Shown piece after piece: positions 2,487-8,371 of a stretch of DNA of 11,171 nucleotides (the first letter of the stretch is position 1; each line of letters opens with the position of its first letter). Below the pieces are notes generated by a model. It made no database searches, was not told the origin of the DNA, and saw nothing but the letters and a program-made list of their open reading frames with translations. The DNA comes from Candidatus Bathyarchaeota archaeon (GTDB lineage: Archaea; Thermoproteota; Bathyarchaeia; RBG-16-48-13; GCA-020355125): positions 1-11,171 of the forward strand of contig DAOVAG010000014.1 of NCBI GenBank assembly GCA_030671165.1, in the 5' to 3' direction. The position numbers were made by a program, and so were the translations under genes.

Positions 2487-2771
2487 ATGAAAAATTCTTC
2501 AAGACGTTCTAGATTAGATATATACTTTGATCTGTTACAAGTTCTCGAGCTAGGTGTGGATAAACCGACACGAATTATGTATAGTGCAAATCTATCTTGG
2601 AAAACGCTTAATGAGATACTTTCTACACTCATCTCAAAAGGTTTCATAAAAGAAGTTTATGTGAAGACTTCAAAGAGATACCGAATAACCGAAATAGGAC
2701 ATAATGCACTTTCTTATCACCGGAAGTCAATAGAAGGGTTGAAAGTTATGAAGAGTTGGGTTAGATCATGA
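2487..2771 (+). CDS. winged helix-turn-helix transcriptional regulator (HTH_45/ArnR1-like)
   Basis: This 94-residue protein has the layout of the small archaeal winged-helix regulators: an opening helix with the typical RSRLDIYFDLLQVL (residues 7-20), a second helix after KPTRIMYSANLSW (27-39), the recognition helix KTLNEILSTLISKGFI (39-54), the two-strand wing ending in KRYRITEIG (63-71), and a C-terminal helix (72-92) that usually makes the dimer. It should bind DNA as a dimer; the target is unknown. The ATG is supported by a strong AGGGGGT site at 2474-2480 with 6 nt spacing. It is a single gene behind a 500-bp spacer rich in palindromes, which fits self-regulation but does not prove it. 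Family assignment is confident; regulon and ligand are not readable. Confidence 0.85.
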   Translation: MKNSSRRSRLDIYFDLLQVLELGVDKPTRIMYSANLSWKTLNEILSTLISKGFIKEVYVKTSKRYRITEIGHNALSYHRKSIEGLKVMKSWVRS

Positions 2772-2936
2772 TCTTTTCTTTCACAATTTGGAATTTCGAA
2801 AAATAAAAATTATTCTTAAAGTTCTATCAATGTTAAATGAATGAAACCATTATGTGTATACAGTTCTAAAATAAACTCTCTTAAAATTATTAAATTGTAT
2901 ATATTTTAAACTGAAATGAAAGTAATCTGTAATATT

Positions 2937-2947
2937 CTTTATAAGCG
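2937..2947 (+). promoter_or_regulatory. TATA-like box for the aIF1A gene pair
   Basis: CTTTATAAGCG lies about 100 nt before the TTG start and would give transcription from near 2970, with a leader of roughly 65 nt. A second AT-rich candidate, GTATATATTTTAAA, lies at 2897-2910. Either would drive both aIF1A and the OB-fold gene. Confidence 0.4.
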
Positions 2948-3026
2948 ACCCATCACATGATGAGTTAAAGTCTTCGTTATTTTATTTTGGAAAACCAACA
3001 TAAATAATCGATTATGTTAGTGTTAT

Positions 3027-3032
3027 GGGTGA
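3027..3032 (+). promoter_or_regulatory. ribosome binding site that fixes the TTG start of aIF1A
   Basis: GGGTGA lies 5 nt before the TTG at 3038. It matches the TCACC part of the archaeal 16S 3' end. A TGA stop at 3035-3037 directly precedes the TTG in frame, so translation cannot begin further upstream. Confidence 0.7.
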
Positions 3033-3037
3033 CCTGA

Positions 3038-3349
3038 TTGGGTAAAAAGAAAGTATTAACCGAGTCCGATATCAAACCTCGTTTACCTAGAGATTATGAG
3101 GTTTTAGGTTTCGCTGAAAAACTGTTGGGTTACGATAGGGTTCAGGTTAAATGTATGGATGGATTCACTCGATTATGTAGAATTAGAGGAAAGATGAAAC
3201 GAAGAGTTTGGATAAGAGTCGGTGATGTTGTTCTAGTATCCCCTTGGGATTTTCAAAATTCGAGAGGCGATATTACGTTTCGTTATAGACGAAATCAAGC
3301 AGATTGGTTAAGAAGAAATGGCTACTTAAAAGATGTCCAATTTGCTTAA
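3038..3349 (+). CDS. eif1A: translation initiation factor aIF1A
   Basis: This 103-residue protein is the archaeal homologue of eukaryotic eIF1A, which binds the small ribosomal subunit A site with an S1-like OB fold and promotes scanning and initiator tRNA placement. Clear family signatures are LPRDYEVLGFAEKLLG (16-31), the RNA-binding strand block VQVKCMDGFTRLCRIRGKMK (35-54), RVWIRVGDVVLVSPWDFQ (56-73), the DI..RY motif (79-83) and the C-terminal WLRRNGYL (90-97). Its length is normal for archaea, which lack the acidic tail of the eukaryotic protein. The start is TTG, forced by an in-frame TGA just upstream and backed by GGGTGA. The stop lies 15 nt before the OB-fold gene, so the two are very probably co-transcribed. 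Confidence 0.96.
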   Translation: MGKKKVLTESDIKPRLPRDYEVLGFAEKLLGYDRVQVKCMDGFTRLCRIRGKMKRRVWIRVGDVVLVSPWDFQNSRGDITFRYRRNQADWLRRNGYLKDVQFA

Positions 3350-3364
3350 AAGGTCTTGTAGTCA

Positions 3365-4054
3365 TTGCCTGAAGTGTCAATAAGAAGGATGTTTAATTAT
3401 AATGGTAGGGGACGTCCTAGAGGTAGATCGAATTCATATGAAGGTTTCTTAAAATCGATTGTCTCAATCGCTCGGAAGTATGATTTAGAACCGGATCAAT
3501 TATTTGAAGCATTCGTTGAGGCATGGAGTAACAAGTTGTCTCAATACGGAATTTTAACGATCTCATGTAGGGTAGTGAATCATGATTCTGCTACTTTTCT
3601 TATAACTAATGAAGAAAATGTAGTTTCACAGTTTCCTATAACATTGGATGTTCTGAAAGAACCGGAATACTATAAGAATCAACTTCACTATTTCTCCGAA
3701 TTTAATTATAGAAATAAAAATCAAGATAATAAGATAAAAAATATCAGCGAATTAAGATATGGCATGAAAGGAATTGATATCAAAGCAAAAGTTATTGAGA
3801 TTCCACCAGGTATAAATGTTTTAACAAGATTTGGAACAACTGCTTATGTGTCTAACGTGAAGATCGCTGATGAATCGGGATCTATAAGACTTAGTTTATG
3901 GAATAATCAGGTAGATAGCGTGCATGTAGGTGACGAGATTGAACTTAGAGCCTGTTATATCTTTCGGTACAGAGGGGAACCTCAATTAAGATTGGGCCGA
4001 AAAGGCACATTGACAACCATCAACGAGAAGGAACCAAATTCTCTAAAAAAATAA
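3365..4054 (+). CDS. RPA/SSB-like OB-fold nucleic-acid-binding protein
   Basis: This 229-residue protein has one OB fold at about residues 128-218. Seen there: SELRYGMKGIDIKAKVIEI (128-146), TRFGTTAYVSNVKIADESG (154-172), IRLSLWNNQ (174-182), VGDEIEL (188-194) and FRYRGEPQLRLGRKG (200-214). This is the pattern of archaeal single-stranded DNA-binding/RPA domains (RFGT..., D..G.I.L.LW, VGD, RG...L..GR.G). The N-terminus is basic with RGRPRGR (residues 15-21), then a helical segment (24-60) and a small mixed region (61-110) I do not recognise. It probably binds ssDNA or RNA. The TTG start follows AAAAGGT (3348-3354) by 10 nt; a nearer TTG at 3356 is followed directly by a stop. Placement 15 nt after aIF1A suggests one transcript and leaves an RNA-related role open. 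Confidence 0.82.
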   Translation: MPEVSIRRMFNYNGRGRPRGRSNSYEGFLKSIVSIARKYDLEPDQLFEAFVEAWSNKLSQYGILTISCRVVNHDSATFLITNEENVVSQFPITLDVLKEPEYYKNQLHYFSEFNYRNKNQDNKIKNISELRYGMKGIDIKAKVIEIPPGINVLTRFGTTAYVSNVKIADESGSIRLSLWNNQVDSVHVGDEIELRACYIFRYRGEPQLRLGRKGTLTTINEKEPNSLKK

Positions 4055-4143
4055 AATAGCCATATTATTTGTAATAACTTATTAGTGTACGTCCTCAATG
4101 GCTGTCTTGTTTGTAAGGCGTACGAGATAAATAGCTTAATTTT

Positions 4144-4287
4144 ATGGTGTTCAAAGCTGAAATATGCTCTATATTAAAAGTCGTTGTTTTGATCGCGATA
4201 ATACTATCATTGATCTTGTTTATACCTCGTGCAAAGTTTAATCATAAAGTTGATGAAAACATGAAAGCCTTGAACGAACACAAATAA
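4144..4287 (+). CDS. possible small single-helix membrane protein
   Basis: ATG at 4144 to TAA at 4285-4287 gives 47 residues. Residues 10-28 form a clean hydrophobic helix (ILKVVVLIAIILSLILFIP), followed by a basic turn (RAKFNHK) and a short charged helix (VDENMKALNEHK), as expected for a membrane anchor with its basic side in the cytosol. No convincing ribosome site precedes the ATG, so it would be leaderless or weakly translated. A TAATCAAA inverted repeat begins right after the stop and could end the transcript. The composition is more protein-like than chance frames nearby, but the call remains uncertain and no function is implied. Confidence 0.35.
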   Translation: MVFKAEICSILKVVVLIAIILSLILFIPRAKFNHKVDENMKALNEHK

Positions 4288-4314
4288 TAATCAAATATTG
4301 TTTATGTTTGATTA
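4288..4314. repeat. inverted repeat after the small membrane ORF
   Basis: TAATCAAA (4288-4295) and TTTGATTA (4307-4314) form 8-bp arms around an 11-nt loop, beginning one base after the stop of the 47-residue ORF. AATAATCAAAT recurs as a direct repeat near 4340. Confidence 0.35.
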
Positions 4315-4384
4315 AATTGACACATTGAATCCAACCCAAAAATAATCAAATCTTAAAAATATCTGTTTAAAGAATTGAAAAAAT

Positions 4385-4480
4385 ATGATTCCAGAAGATT
4401 ATGAAAACGTCAGAGTGATACTGAAAAACTCAAAATATACTGAAGAAGAAATAATTGAGTCTAATAATTCAGATCAGTAG
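4385..4480 (+). CDS. doubtful 31-residue ORF
   Basis: ATG at 4385 to TAG at 4478-4480 gives a small acidic peptide (MIPEDYENVRVILKNSKYTE, then EEIIESNNSDQ). Codon use is protein-like, but no ribosome site or promoter is evident. It could be a gene remnant or chance. Confidence 0.18.
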   Translation: MIPEDYENVRVILKNSKYTEEEIIESNNSDQ

Positions 4481-4492
4481 ATGTGTTTACTG

Positions 4493-4540
4493 AATGATAT
4501 TTATTTTTATTTATCGAACAATTTGACCTGAAATATCATT
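4493..4540. repeat. 10-bp inverted repeat over the polymerase stop
   Basis: AATGATATTT (4493-4502) and AAATATCATT (4531-4540) are exact inverse copies with a 28-nt AT-rich loop. The right arm overlaps the stop codon of the minus-strand polymerase. It may form a 3'-end hairpin on the polymerase mRNA. The T-rich plus-strand loop might stop transcripts arriving from the left. Confidence 0.4.
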
Positions 4541-6437
4541 AGAAATAATTCAAAAGAGTCCCGTTTCTTTTAACGTCTTTAATATATTTGAGATTCATTG
4601 GTTTAAAGGTTTGATTTAGAGCTGTTCGGAGATTTCGTTCGTAATCTTTTATATTTACTTCTTTAATGTTCCTTAATTGTTCAGTAGGTTTCACTGTGAA
4701 AGTTCTATTACGATATGTGAAGGGTTTAACTTTAACAAAGTTGACGACGTCTCCTCGCCGTACTGTTTTACCTAGATCGATAAGTTGAAGGGCACATTGG
4801 TAAGGTTGATGTAAAGCTATATCGTTTATTTTATCTTTTGGATCTTCGTGAAGTTGTACGTTATATGTTAAATCTTTTTTACTAATTATTCCCATTTGTA
4901 GATCAGTTAGAACTTTATTTATGATATCTTGAATACGTTGTTTAGATTTTTCAAAGTCTCCCCAATTGTTCACTTTTACCATCGCTTTTACACAATCTTT
5001 GAAAATATTTTGTATGAAAGGTGGAGAATTAGATTTAACAGCGGTTACTCCCTTTATGTCAGGTGTACCATCTCCTCGTATACCAAAGTAAGCTTTCATA
5101 GCTTTTGGAAGTATACAGACAGAGTATTGTTCATCCACAGCAAGATCTAATTTAAAGCGATCTTTTACAGTCTTGATGAGCCACAGCACTTGTTCATTAC
5201 TTGGATTATCTAGAAAGAGTGAATCTGTATCTCCATAGATCGGGTGGAGTCCTCTTTCTTTTGCTATGTTATACGTTGTTTGAAGACAATGTCGACCATA
5301 TGCCGTGATGGATTCCGCAAGTGAAGGGTGAGATAAACCTCGAATACGAATTGTAACACCGTAACTTGAAACAAGAATTCGTTTGAGTAGTTGAGATGTA
5401 GCTTTAGCTTGCCATCTCGCTTCAGGGGTTATGGTCTTACTTTTTGAAAGAGGTTTAAACCAGTGAATACGTAGATCTTTTAAGGCTCCTATTAATATTG
5501 AATAAACTCCTCTTTTTAATGTGCACACGGTGTGTTCAAGTTTAGGTACTCTGTTATCTTGACATTCTTGATGAAAACAGTTTATGGTTTCATAAGAGAG
5601 ATTATATGAATCGATTAAACTTGGATATAGGCTCTCAAAATCTAGAACTATTGTGTTGAAGTATACTCCAGGTTTAGGTTTAAATGTGAGAGCTCCTTGA
5701 ACACGCTTCTTTGTTTCACCTCTTCTTAACTCTTTAGAGGTTGGTATTAAGATTCTATTTCTTCTAAGATAGTTATGGAGAATGGACTTAATCCAAGTAC
5801 TGACATGTCTGTTGGAGTAAGCCATCGATAGAGGAATATTGCCTACTCTTGAAAGAATAAAAGCTAAGTAATATCGTTCTAGGTCAAGATTCTCATTTAA
5901 ATTCAGTATCTCAGAGGGGATGTGCGGAATTGGTTGTGTACAGAGAGTAAACCATCTTTTTAGTAATTCATATTTTGAAGAATTAATCTCTTTTATTTCA
6001 CGATATTTCTCTTCAAATCTCTTCTTTGTCTTGTTTGAGATCGTATATATTGGTTTTATTTGATCTCCTTTAATTATATGTTTAGCTCCAAAAATTAATC
6101 CTTTATCATACACATAACTCAGAATGGGGGGGATTTCAGCCTCCCAAGACTTTTCAAATTTCTCAGAAATATACTTAAGATCAGAGAAATCCTCCAGATG
6201 TATCTTTGTTATTTTTATTGGTTGGTCTGAAAAGAGTTCATTTTTTATTACTATCTCAGTTTTTAAATTTAGAGCTTCAATAATTTTTTGATCGTTTGGA
6301 GATAACGAATAAGGTATGAAAAAATAGGGTTTATACGTTCTATCCACTATTTCTTCACAAACATTTTTTTGATCGTTAAAGAAAATAAGTTTAACGCCTT
6401 GATCAGTTACTTTAATCTCAATTAAGTAATGAACCAT
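4539..6437 (-). CDS. family B DNA polymerase lacking the 3'-5' exonuclease domain
   Basis: The palm signatures are complete: motif A DFESLYPSLI (266-275), motif B around K352-G360 (KRILVSSYG), motif C YGDTDSLF (401-408, D403 and D405), and a KxY-like KAYFG (448-452). The thumb is recognisable (EDPKDKINDIALHQPYQCAL, 531-550; RRGDVVNFV, 560-568). The N-terminal domain is present up to YVYDKGLIFG (108-117). The exonuclease domain that should follow is missing: only about 70 residues separate this from the helix ERYYLAFILSRVGN (187-200) that leads into the palm, against roughly 200 in replicative archaeal PolB, and no Exo I DIE, Exo II or Exo III motif is seen. At 632 residues it is about 150 short of the usual length. 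Motif B has Val356 in place of the usual Asn of NSxYG. The C-terminus NGTLLNYF looks like a PCNA-binding PIP box. It probably acts in repair or translesion synthesis, like PolB2-type enzymes (inference). ATG follows AGAGGT by 11 nt. Confidence 0.93.
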   Translation of the reverse strand: MVHYLIEIKVTDQGVKLIFFNDQKNVCEEIVDRTYKPYFFIPYSLSPNDQKIIEALNLKTEIVIKNELFSDQPIKITKIHLEDFSDLKYISEKFEKSWEAEIPPILSYVYDKGLIFGAKHIIKGDQIKPIYTISNKTKKRFEEKYREIKEINSSKYELLKRWFTLCTQPIPHIPSEILNLNENLDLERYYLAFILSRVGNIPLSMAYSNRHVSTWIKSILHNYLRRNRILIPTSKELRRGETKKRVQGALTFKPKPGVYFNTIVLDFESLYPSLIDSYNLSYETINCFHQECQDNRVPKLEHTVCTLKRGVYSILIGALKDLRIHWFKPLSKSKTITPEARWQAKATSQLLKRILVSSYGVTIRIRGLSHPSLAESITAYGRHCLQTTYNIAKERGLHPIYGDTDSLFLDNPSNEQVLWLIKTVKDRFKLDLAVDEQYSVCILPKAMKAYFGIRGDGTPDIKGVTAVKSNSPPFIQNIFKDCVKAMVKVNNWGDFEKSKQRIQDIINKVLTDLQMGIISKKDLTYNVQLHEDPKDKINDIALHQPYQCALQLIDLGKTVRRGDVVNFVKVKPFTYRNRTFTVKPTEQLRNIKEVNIKDYERNLRTALNQTFKPMNLKYIKDVKRNGTLLNYF

Positions 6438-7192: not shown

Positions 7193-7615
7193 ATGTTCTC
7201 TACCTTACGAAATCCTAAATTGCTAAAAATTTACCTAATTCCCTTATTTGCTGTACTCTTAGGAACCATGACACAATCAATAGCTGTACTTTATGTATTT
7301 GAACTGGGTGGGAGCACTTTTGAAATAAATCTGATCTCAACTGTGCGAAGCTCCATGGGTATTCTCTTAATTGTTCCATTCGGAATCCTATCTGATCGTT
7401 TTGGTCGAAAACCGATGGTCCTTTATCCAAGATTAATACAATTCTTAGGTGTAGTAGTTTACGCTTTTGCTACAAGCCCTAATCATTTACTCATTGCTTC
7501 AATAGTAGGTGGATTTGCCGGTGGCGCTTTTTTTCCGGTTCTTCTTACAATGATTGGTGACCTTAGTGAAAGAGAAAATATACAAGAAGTGATAATTACA
7601 TTCTTCTTATTTTAA
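7193..7615 (+). CDS. MFS transporter, N-terminal part, cut by an in-frame TAA
   Basis: These 140 residues are the first four helices and the start of helix 5 of a major facilitator superfamily permease. Helices lie at about 11-34, 45-64, 78-94 and 98-121. The loop between helices 2 and 3 carries the canonical motif A, GILSDRFGRKP (64-74). The frame ends in mid-helix at ...ITFFLF followed by TAA (7613-7615), and the same frame resumes directly with IIGMLIGPTI, the motif C region of helix 5. Both halves together make 392 codons, a normal 12-helix length. ATG follows GAGG (7182-7185) by 7 nt. Alone this fragment should not transport. It is a pseudogene, or an error or recoding at one codon. Substrate is not predictable; the nearest families are drug or metabolite effluxers. 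Confidence 0.85.
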   Translation: MFSTLRNPKLLKIYLIPLFAVLLGTMTQSIAVLYVFELGGSTFEINLISTVRSSMGILLIVPFGILSDRFGRKPMVLYPRLIQFLGVVVYAFATSPNHLLIASIVGGFAGGAFFPVLLTMIGDLSERENIQEVIITFFLF

Positions 7616-7624
7616 ATTATAGGT

Positions 7625-8371
7625 ATGTTAATTGGGCCAACGATCACTAGTCTATTATTAACTTTTCCACAAATAATTCTAAGAAACATTTATCAATTAG
7701 TTTTGGTAGGTCAAATACTCTTTTTCATTTATCTTTTTACACAAATTAAAGAGACAAAACTATCAAACGAGAAAAAACAAAAAATTGATTATAAACATGA
7801 ATTATCCAATTTATTCAACACAAGAAACTTTCAAAGCCTTATTTTAATGGGATTCTTCTACTTTTTTTACAACACCATAATCCGAACATATCTACCGATT
7901 TATGCTAAAGTTGATTTAAATCTCTCAGATGCTGAAATAGCATCATTGTCCATATTTCGTAATTTAGCAGTCATGTTAATTCGTTTAACAGGAGCGACTT
8001 TATTAGCCAAAGTCTCAATTAAACGGTTTCTTATCATAGCAATAGCGTTAGGAGGAATAAACAGTTTCTTGGTACCTCTTAATACTTCTTATTTACCTCT
8101 GATATTATCAATCTTTCTGTCAGGTTTAAGTTATGGTGCAGTAATGAGTCTTGGTTCAACACTTGTATCGATTAGCTCATCAATTGAAAATCGAGGAGTT
8201 GCCAACAGCATCTATATGGCCTTTAATGGAATAGGAAGAATACTAAACATGGTAACAACACCCATTGCAGATACATACGGTAATGTTACACTTTTTATGG
8301 TAGGAGGTTTCTGTGCTTTAGGCGCAATTATTCCCACTCTGTTTTATAAAATTAAAAAAAGTTTAACTTAA
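7625..8371 (+). CDS. MFS transporter, C-terminal part, same frame after the TAA
   Basis: This 248-residue stretch continues the same reading frame as the preceding N-terminal part. It begins in helix 5 with motif C, GMLIGPTI, has helix 6 (22-40), a basic cytoplasmic loop (41-65), and then the six helices of the second bundle (about 70-92, 105-128, 133-150, 156-180, 195-214, 222-241). It ends YKIKKSLT. The ATG at 7625 is simply the first Met after the stop; only a weak AGGT precedes it, so independent translation is doubtful. Codon use matches the first half, so the break appears recent or artefactual. It would be functional only if the TAA were absent, read through, or if the two halves assembled. 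Confidence 0.82.
   Translation: MLIGPTITSLLLTFPQIILRNIYQLVLVGQILFFIYLFTQIKETKLSNEKKQKIDYKHELSNLFNTRNFQSLILMGFFYFFYNTIIRTYLPIYAKVDLNLSDAEIASLSIFRNLAVMLIRLTGATLLAKVSIKRFLIIAIALGGINSFLVPLNTSYLPLILSIFLSGLSYGAVMSLGSTLVSISSSIENRGVANSIYMAFNGIGRILNMVTTPIADTYGNVTLFMVGGFCALGAIIPTLFYKIKKSLT

Follow-up and report, generated by a model that had tools for sequence, protein, structure and literature searches.

An Exonuclease-Less Family B DNA Polymerase Related to PolB1 in Bathyarchaeia and Hermodarchaeota

Introduction

Can an archaeal family B DNA polymerase lose its proofreading domain entirely and remain a working enzyme, and if so, to which polymerase line does it belong and what might it do? The question is raised by a gene of a Candidatus Bathyarchaeota archaeon. 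It lies in the window, by which we mean the whole stretch of 11,171 nucleotides that was analyzed (DAOVAG010000014.1, contig C205 of our set), and which belongs to a 1.18-Mb genome that is 77% complete and comes from a fragmented assembly. The initial annotation, made from the sequence alone, saw here a family B polymerase with a missing exonuclease domain and an intact palm, and compared it with the PolB2 type.

Domain architecture

The gene and the parts of its product are as follows:

4539..6437, minus strand: exonuclease-less (exo-less) family B DNA polymerase, PolB1-related; 632 aa, ATG start
5916..6437, minus strand: N-terminal region, residues 1-174, common to PolB1; residues 21-174 correspond to 1s5j 36-191, and residues 165-175 align gap-free with the full-length PolB1 B1_L001
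5868..5915, minus strand: short linker, residues 175-190, where the exonuclease domain would sit, from the anchor-to-anchor residue count
4584..5867, minus strand: palm, fingers, and thumb, residues 191-618, from PF00136 at 202-613, the AlphaFold2 model, and PDB comparison
5616..5642, minus strand: motif A, DFESLYPSL, residues 266-274, catalytic D266; D in 150/150 proteins
5358..5384, minus strand: motif B, KRILVSSYG, residues 352-360, V356 replacing the usual Asn; Val in 148/148 readable of 150
5220..5237, minus strand: motif C, YGDTDS, residues 401-406, catalytic D403 and D405; GDTDS in 150/150
4542..4583, minus strand: disordered C-terminal tail, residues 619-632 (pLDDT < 50), with a conserved hydrophobic/aromatic end motif that is clamp-binding-like

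In a Pfam search the window polymerase matches PF00136 at residues 202-613 (E = 7e-34) and no other family at E ≤ 0.1. PF00136 is matched by all 70 aligned members of the exo-less family, while the exonuclease family PF03104 is not among the best 25 of the 28 families found at E ≤ 1 in these 70 proteins, which leaves at most one member that could match it. The genome's own full-length PolB1 does match PF03104 (E = 3.7e-20).

Alignment with the structure of Sulfolobus PolB1 (1s5j) locates the loss. The window polymerase aligns in two stretches, residues 21-174 with chain residues 36-191 and residues 180-615 with chain residues 388-823, and skips the exonuclease (chain residues 192-387). Between anchors at query residues 174 and 191 we count 17-20 residues in 30 of the 150 family proteins, compared with 204-212 in the 16 full-length PolB1 (out of 17 rows) taken into the same alignment. 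The estimate in the initial annotation of about 70 residues in place of the exonuclease is therefore too high: the number is about 17, and the N-terminal region common to PolB1 extends as far as residue 174. Within the stretch missing from the window polymerase, the full-length PolB1 of the same genome carries LDIE, NGDDFDLRY, and YCLMDS; we take LDIE to be Exo I and YCLMDS to be Exo III.

The AlphaFold2 model of the window polymerase (pLDDT 90.5, pTM 0.85) was read for secondary structure rather than coordinates. It has two short strands and helices in residues 118-191, and in this predicted structure the number of strands is too low for an exonuclease fold; the fold that might have been hidden in residues 118-186 was thus not recovered. 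Judged from the sequence comparisons, the whole exonuclease domain is lost, with a linker of about 17 residues in its place, and the N-terminal domain and the palm, fingers, and thumb are kept. On this point the initial reading stands.

Active site, motif B, and C-terminal tail

We assembled 150 family proteins (the window protein, 29 from loci, and the 120 listed relatives; some are near copies, and a few are truncated by contig ends), with a median length of 634 residues and a 10-90% range of 624-642. The motif A aspartate and the GDTDS of motif C, including both catalytic aspartates, are present in 150 out of 150, as the initial annotation had noted for the window protein, and the motif B lysine is also conserved. 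Its description of the palm motifs as intact holds for motifs A and C; it missed a substitution in motif B, which throughout the family reads K-x3-V. Valine takes the place of the usual asparagine in all 148 readable proteins (two of the 150 were missed by the pattern). The asparagine is found in 17 out of 17 full-length PolB1 rows and 1s5j, and in seven out of seven PolB3-clade rows and 5mdn. All 11 PolB2-clade rows have the valine, four of them together with the HGIVD-type motif C of classical PolB2; these rows come from Bathyarchaeia and Hermodarchaeota only, Sulfolobus PolB2 being outside the set.

A further change is confined to part of the family: The fidelity tyrosine, equivalent to RB69 Y567, is glycine in all eight Asgard copies. 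In the RB69 polymerase, a water molecule links N564 of motif B to the dNTP beta-phosphate, and Y567 probes the minor groove and safeguards fidelity (PMC3564110). The RB69 Y567A mutant is described as having weaker discrimination and better mismatch extension (PMC3377560).

Between motif A and the fingers there is a Cys/His cluster, CxHxxC...HxxC (C287, H289, C292, H302, and C305; window positions 5523-5579, minus strand). Both the exo-less and the full-length PolB1 enzymes of Bathyarchaeia and Hermodarchaeota have it, 1s5j has part of it, and 5mdn lacks it. From its residue pattern, the cluster could bind zinc.

The C-terminal tail ends in a conserved motif of the form [LIM]x[DNE][FYW], which occurs within the last 16 residues of 121 out of 128 distinct tails (shuffled tails: mean 9.6, maximum 20). 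A classical clamp-binding box with glutamine was considered and rejected, as it occurs in none of the 150 tails; it is the looser end motif that lies far above the shuffles. Similar ends are seen in some full-length PolB1 tails (for example, TKLEAFF in L015). The exo-less tail resembles a clamp-binding box minus the glutamine and may bind the clamp.

Distribution of the exo-less family

Of 7999 candidates scored in a protein search, 1427 were relatives at E ≤ 0.001, a number that will include full-length PolBs. The genome scan yielded 25 loci, of which 17 are titled Bathyarchaeota and six are Hermod-named; one more comes from the miscellaneous Crenarchaeota group-6, and one lies in a Bacteroidales-labeled bin. 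The closest relative with a named record, L025 from a Candidatus Bathyarchaeota bin, is 85% identical to the window polymerase. Among 250 genomes of the class Bathyarchaeia, many of them incomplete, 51 carry the exo-less gene, and the scores separate the two kinds of enzyme (exo-less copies >350 bits, full-length PolB1 ≤281 bits). All 13 carriers in a sample of 300 genomes of the phylum (the window genome and 12 others) belong to this same class. In the Asgard phylum of Hermodarchaeum, eight out of 227 genomes carry the gene at E ≤ 1e-86. Six of these are Hermod-named bins, in which PolB1-like matches and another PolB match are likewise found; the two Hermod PolB1 examined (L103 and L104) contain Exo I and III motifs.

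The initial annotation had allowed for a misassembled full-length PolB, and the fragmented, 77% complete assembly might seem to favor such an artifact or a deleted copy. The same architecture in 150 proteins from many independent genomes, with their narrow range of lengths, excludes it. Two of the loci (L034 and L036) lie within records titled chromosome, and the window polymerase is only 36% identical to the PolB1 of its own genome. We regard this explanation as already refuted. A pseudogene is likewise ruled out, by the widespread relatives of the same architecture and by a dN/dS of ~0.2 between the window gene and L025. This ratio points to purifying selection and argues for a working enzyme.

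Several individual genomes deserve mention. Three that are 92-97% complete (G059, G135, and G149) have an exo-less copy with no second match at E ≤ 1e-60, so that a full-length PolB1 was not observed in them; in G059 the exo-less copy is accompanied by a 770-aa PolB match alone. These genomes may have lost the proofreading PolB1, or their assemblies may have gaps. Two different exo-less copies occur together in G185 (C55 and C64) and in the JAUWZP01 bin (L035 and L046). The Bacteroidales-titled contig (L030, JAFGAK010000042.1) carries an exo-less PolB otherwise found only in archaea and is probably mis-binned. PolB frames of 1159-1693 aa were seen among Hermod PolB1-like (L106-L108, L110, L111, and L114), viral PolB1-like (L128), and other PolB sequences (L093 and L096); their matches are mostly split near the motifs, consistent with inteins. 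No frame of this length was found among the exo-less copies listed in the class and Hermodarchaeum-phylum scans.

A viral or mobile origin of the gene was considered and gained no support from the two viral loci read or from the phage matches. Scanning viral sequences with the exo-less family alignment gave 21 loci, whose best segments are 23%-35% identical. The two with the lowest E-values (L127 and L128) encode full-length PolB1-like polymerases with exonuclease motifs, and none of 119 matches in phage records covers 80% of the query.

Phylogenetic position

The best curated NCBIfam matches of the window polymerase are to the PolB1 models named "DNA-directed DNA polymerase I" (NF004417, NF004419, and NF004415; E = 1.7e-105). 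Against NF004417 it scores 353.9 bits, below the 780-bit equivalog cut-off, compared with 1093 for the PolB1 of the same genome (C32).

We built a palm tree of 70 rows, in which 33 of the 70 aligned exo-less proteins were used (28 from Bathyarchaeia and five from Hermodarchaeota). Sequences that were short, broken, or had long insertions (L090, L091, L093, L094, L096, and L112) were left out, as were L105-L111 and L114, Hermod PolB1 matches that are split or partial. The names of two reference clades are our own: "PolB3 clade" follows 5mdn (PolB3 in PMC7544198), and "PolB2 clade" is based on four rows with an HGIVD-type motif C and on the RadA-like neighbor of L095.

The 33 exo-less rows form one clade (100/100), divided into Bathyarchaeia (100/98) and Hermodarchaeota (100/99) and set off by a long stem branch of 1.04 changes per column. 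This clade is joined with PolB1, including 1s5j, in a group of 51 rows (100/100), apart from the PolB3 (5mdn) and PolB2 clades. A clade made up of full-length PolB1 alone is supported at 83/47, which is too weak to separate a sister from a nested position of the exo-less enzymes. Holding exo-less and PolB2 sequences together was rejected by the AU test (p-AU = 0.0015), with the caution that long branches meet in this tree. The comparison with PolB2-type enzymes in the initial annotation therefore has to be replaced by a relationship with PolB1: The tree and the AU test reject PolB2 membership, despite the common motif B valine. Neither placement with PolB3 (5mdn) nor an intact exonuclease was found for the exo-less clade in the tree and the anchor alignment.

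Genomic context and co-occurring polymerases

Besides the exo-less enzyme, the window genome encodes PolD (DP2 on C106), the full-length PolB1 (C32), and a PolB2-clade enzyme (C90). The second full-length PolB and the PolD that the initial annotation had proposed to look for are thus both present, and since PolB1, PolB2-type, and PolD enzymes stand in the same genome, the exo-less polymerase is accessory. The PolB2-clade gene has a Rad51-family (RadA-like) gene just upstream. At this locus (L095, G000:C90) there is a row of genes for Alba (386-682), a Cdc6/ORC-like ATPase (792-1979), the Rad51-family protein (2576-3634), and the PolB2-clade polymerase (3657-5756), whose YADTDS motif is intact.

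PolY was not detected in the window genome or in two others of its genus, all three of which are incomplete (65%-78%). Over the 250 class genomes, PolY is found in 36 of the 51 carriers and 93 of the 199 non-carriers, and PolB2 (E ≤ 1e-70) in 27 of the carriers and 86 of the non-carriers; these are raw counts that ignore relatedness and completeness. A substitute for PolY or PolB2 is not supported by these counts, and the exo-less enzyme therefore seems to add to the known translesion polymerases rather than replace them.

We find no operon partner: Among 30 loci, several with short flanks, no gene cluster besides the polymerase itself occurs in more than seven, and no damage-response gene recurs beside it. 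The commonest neighbor cluster (seven loci) is represented by LipS2 lipoyl synthase in both members checked. A hydrolase-like gene precedes the polymerase in six Hermod loci; the one member checked has matches below the family cut-offs. A linked iRadA was not found: The 10 further ORFs of the window that were scanned give no Rad51 match.

Two other features of the window may be noted. The gene at 3365-4054 (plus strand), which immediately follows an eIF1A gene and converges with the polymerase gene, encodes a protein whose C-terminal half has an Ssb-like OB fold; L025 is the sole locus of the 30 in which a relative of it neighbors the polymerase. At 7193-7615 and 7625-8371 (plus strand), a major facilitator transporter is split by an in-frame stop into two ORFs of the same frame, which by its sequence is a pseudogene or a sequencing error.

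Proposed role and alternatives

We propose, with a probability of roughly 0.6, that this is an accessory, proofreading-free polymerase of the PolB1 line that would extend mismatched or lesion-distorted ends while tethered to the clamp. The sliding clamp would recruit it via the C-terminal tail to stalled primer ends, which it would extend, perhaps also inserting opposite some lesions. Extension would be favored because the primer cannot move into an exonuclease site and because motif B is without the dNTP-contacting asparagine; in the Asgard copies, the extra Tyr-to-Gly change should further relax base selection. It would be an extender like PolB2 or Pol zeta, yet not a PolB2. The intact motifs A and C in 150 out of 150 proteins, together with the dN/dS of ~0.2, argue for a working enzyme, and the main support for the extender role is the parallel with PolB2. 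Sulfolobus PolB2 is described as a translesion extender without exonuclease activity that, despite having no proofreading, copies undamaged DNA accurately (PMC8764526), and the error-prone behavior that the initial annotation thought probable, alongside translesion synthesis by an active enzyme, therefore need not result from exonuclease loss alone.

That same accuracy lends some plausibility to a gap-filling polymerase of base excision or end repair, with ordinary fidelity on undamaged DNA, as does the stand-alone, accessory gene in varied contexts. The motif B changes, foremost the Asgard Tyr-to-Gly, exceed what mere loss of proofreading would entail, and we consider this role improbable. 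A shade less probable again is a Pol alpha-like enzyme that lengthens primase primers before handover to PolD or PolB1, a task for which proofreading is unneeded. Pol alpha is indeed a B-family enzyme with an inactive exonuclease (PMC2527604) and is among the PDB relatives of the window polymerase (4b08, 80 bits). However, a gene carried by just 51 out of 250 class genomes does not serve replication in general, neither a primase gene nor another replication gene recurs beside it in the 30 loci, and Pol alpha keeps the inactive exonuclease domain (PMC2527604) that is absent here.

Loss of the motif B asparagine, which in RB69 contacts the incoming nucleotide (PMC3564110), might instead mark a catalytically inactive structural relic. 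This we think very unlikely: The motif A aspartate, both motif C aspartates, and the motif B lysine are conserved, the gene is under purifying selection, and the PolB2-clade rows also have the valine, Sulfolobus PolB2 being active (PMC8764526).

We also advance a wider proposal tentatively, at slightly less than even odds: A B-family translesion polymerase free of proofreading may have arisen in archaea on two or more occasions, as PolB2 and as a separate PolB1-related clade in Bathyarchaeia and Hermodarchaeota that lost the whole exonuclease and underwent the same motif B Asn-to-Val change, its Asgard branch then acquiring a site like that of RB69 Y567A.

The exo-less clade is an old, conserved extra polymerase of some uncultured archaea, standing beside their normal replicases. 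With it, the replication and repair repertoire of Bathyarchaeia and one Asgard lineage gains another kind of B-family enzyme. With the proofreading domain gone rather than decayed, it offers a natural test of the role of this domain in archaeal PolB1 and a compact, naturally exonuclease-free scaffold for enzymology. The Asn-to-Val change common to the exo-less and PolB2 rows may be a molecular signature of enzymes that do without proofreading.

Comparison with known polymerases

Kazlauskas et al. (2020) divide archaeal PolBs into groups B1-B10, and in the section considered here, B2 (with bacterial G2) is the one archaeal group whose Exo motifs are described as absent or altered (PMC7544198). 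Exo-less sequences may sit unremarked in their B1 group. The decay of the PolB2 exonuclease is treated by Timinskas et al. (2025; PMC11791011), and the enzyme later named PolB2 was described as inactivated by Rogozin et al. (2008; PMC2527604). Our search of open-licence PMC papers turned up no account of a PolB1 clade that lacks the exonuclease.

By NCBIfam and the tree, the closest relative of the exo-less palm is PolB1 (Dpo1; 1s5j), which in Sulfolobus binds the subunits PBP1 and PBP2 (PMC5418573). In contrast to PolB1, the exo-less enzymes lack the Exo I-III domain (~17 residues instead), have valine for the motif B asparagine, and form a separate clade on a long stem.

Like the catalytic subunits of Pol zeta, an extender (PMC11791011), and Pol alpha, they are B-family enzymes without proofreading; both of these, however, keep an inactivated exonuclease domain (PMC2527604), and as PDB matches they are distant (31 bits for Pol zeta and 80 bits for Pol alpha, 4b08).

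The resemblance to PolB2 (Dpo2) and its bacterial homologs lies in the lack of proofreading, the motif B valine (11 PolB2-clade rows), and an accessory role. PolB2 often occurs alongside other PolBs and has a described D(K/R) motif (PMC7544198), and it is associated with PPB2 and iRadA (PMC11791011). In Sulfolobus, Dpo2 is induced by DNA damage (PMC7390963). There are also differences: PolB2 retains a decayed exonuclease domain (PMC11791011), whereas the exo-less clade has lost the whole domain, and the first motif C aspartate is mostly missing in PolB2, although some TACK PolB2 also keep a DxD motif C (PMC11791011), whereas GDTDS is present in all 150 exo-less proteins.
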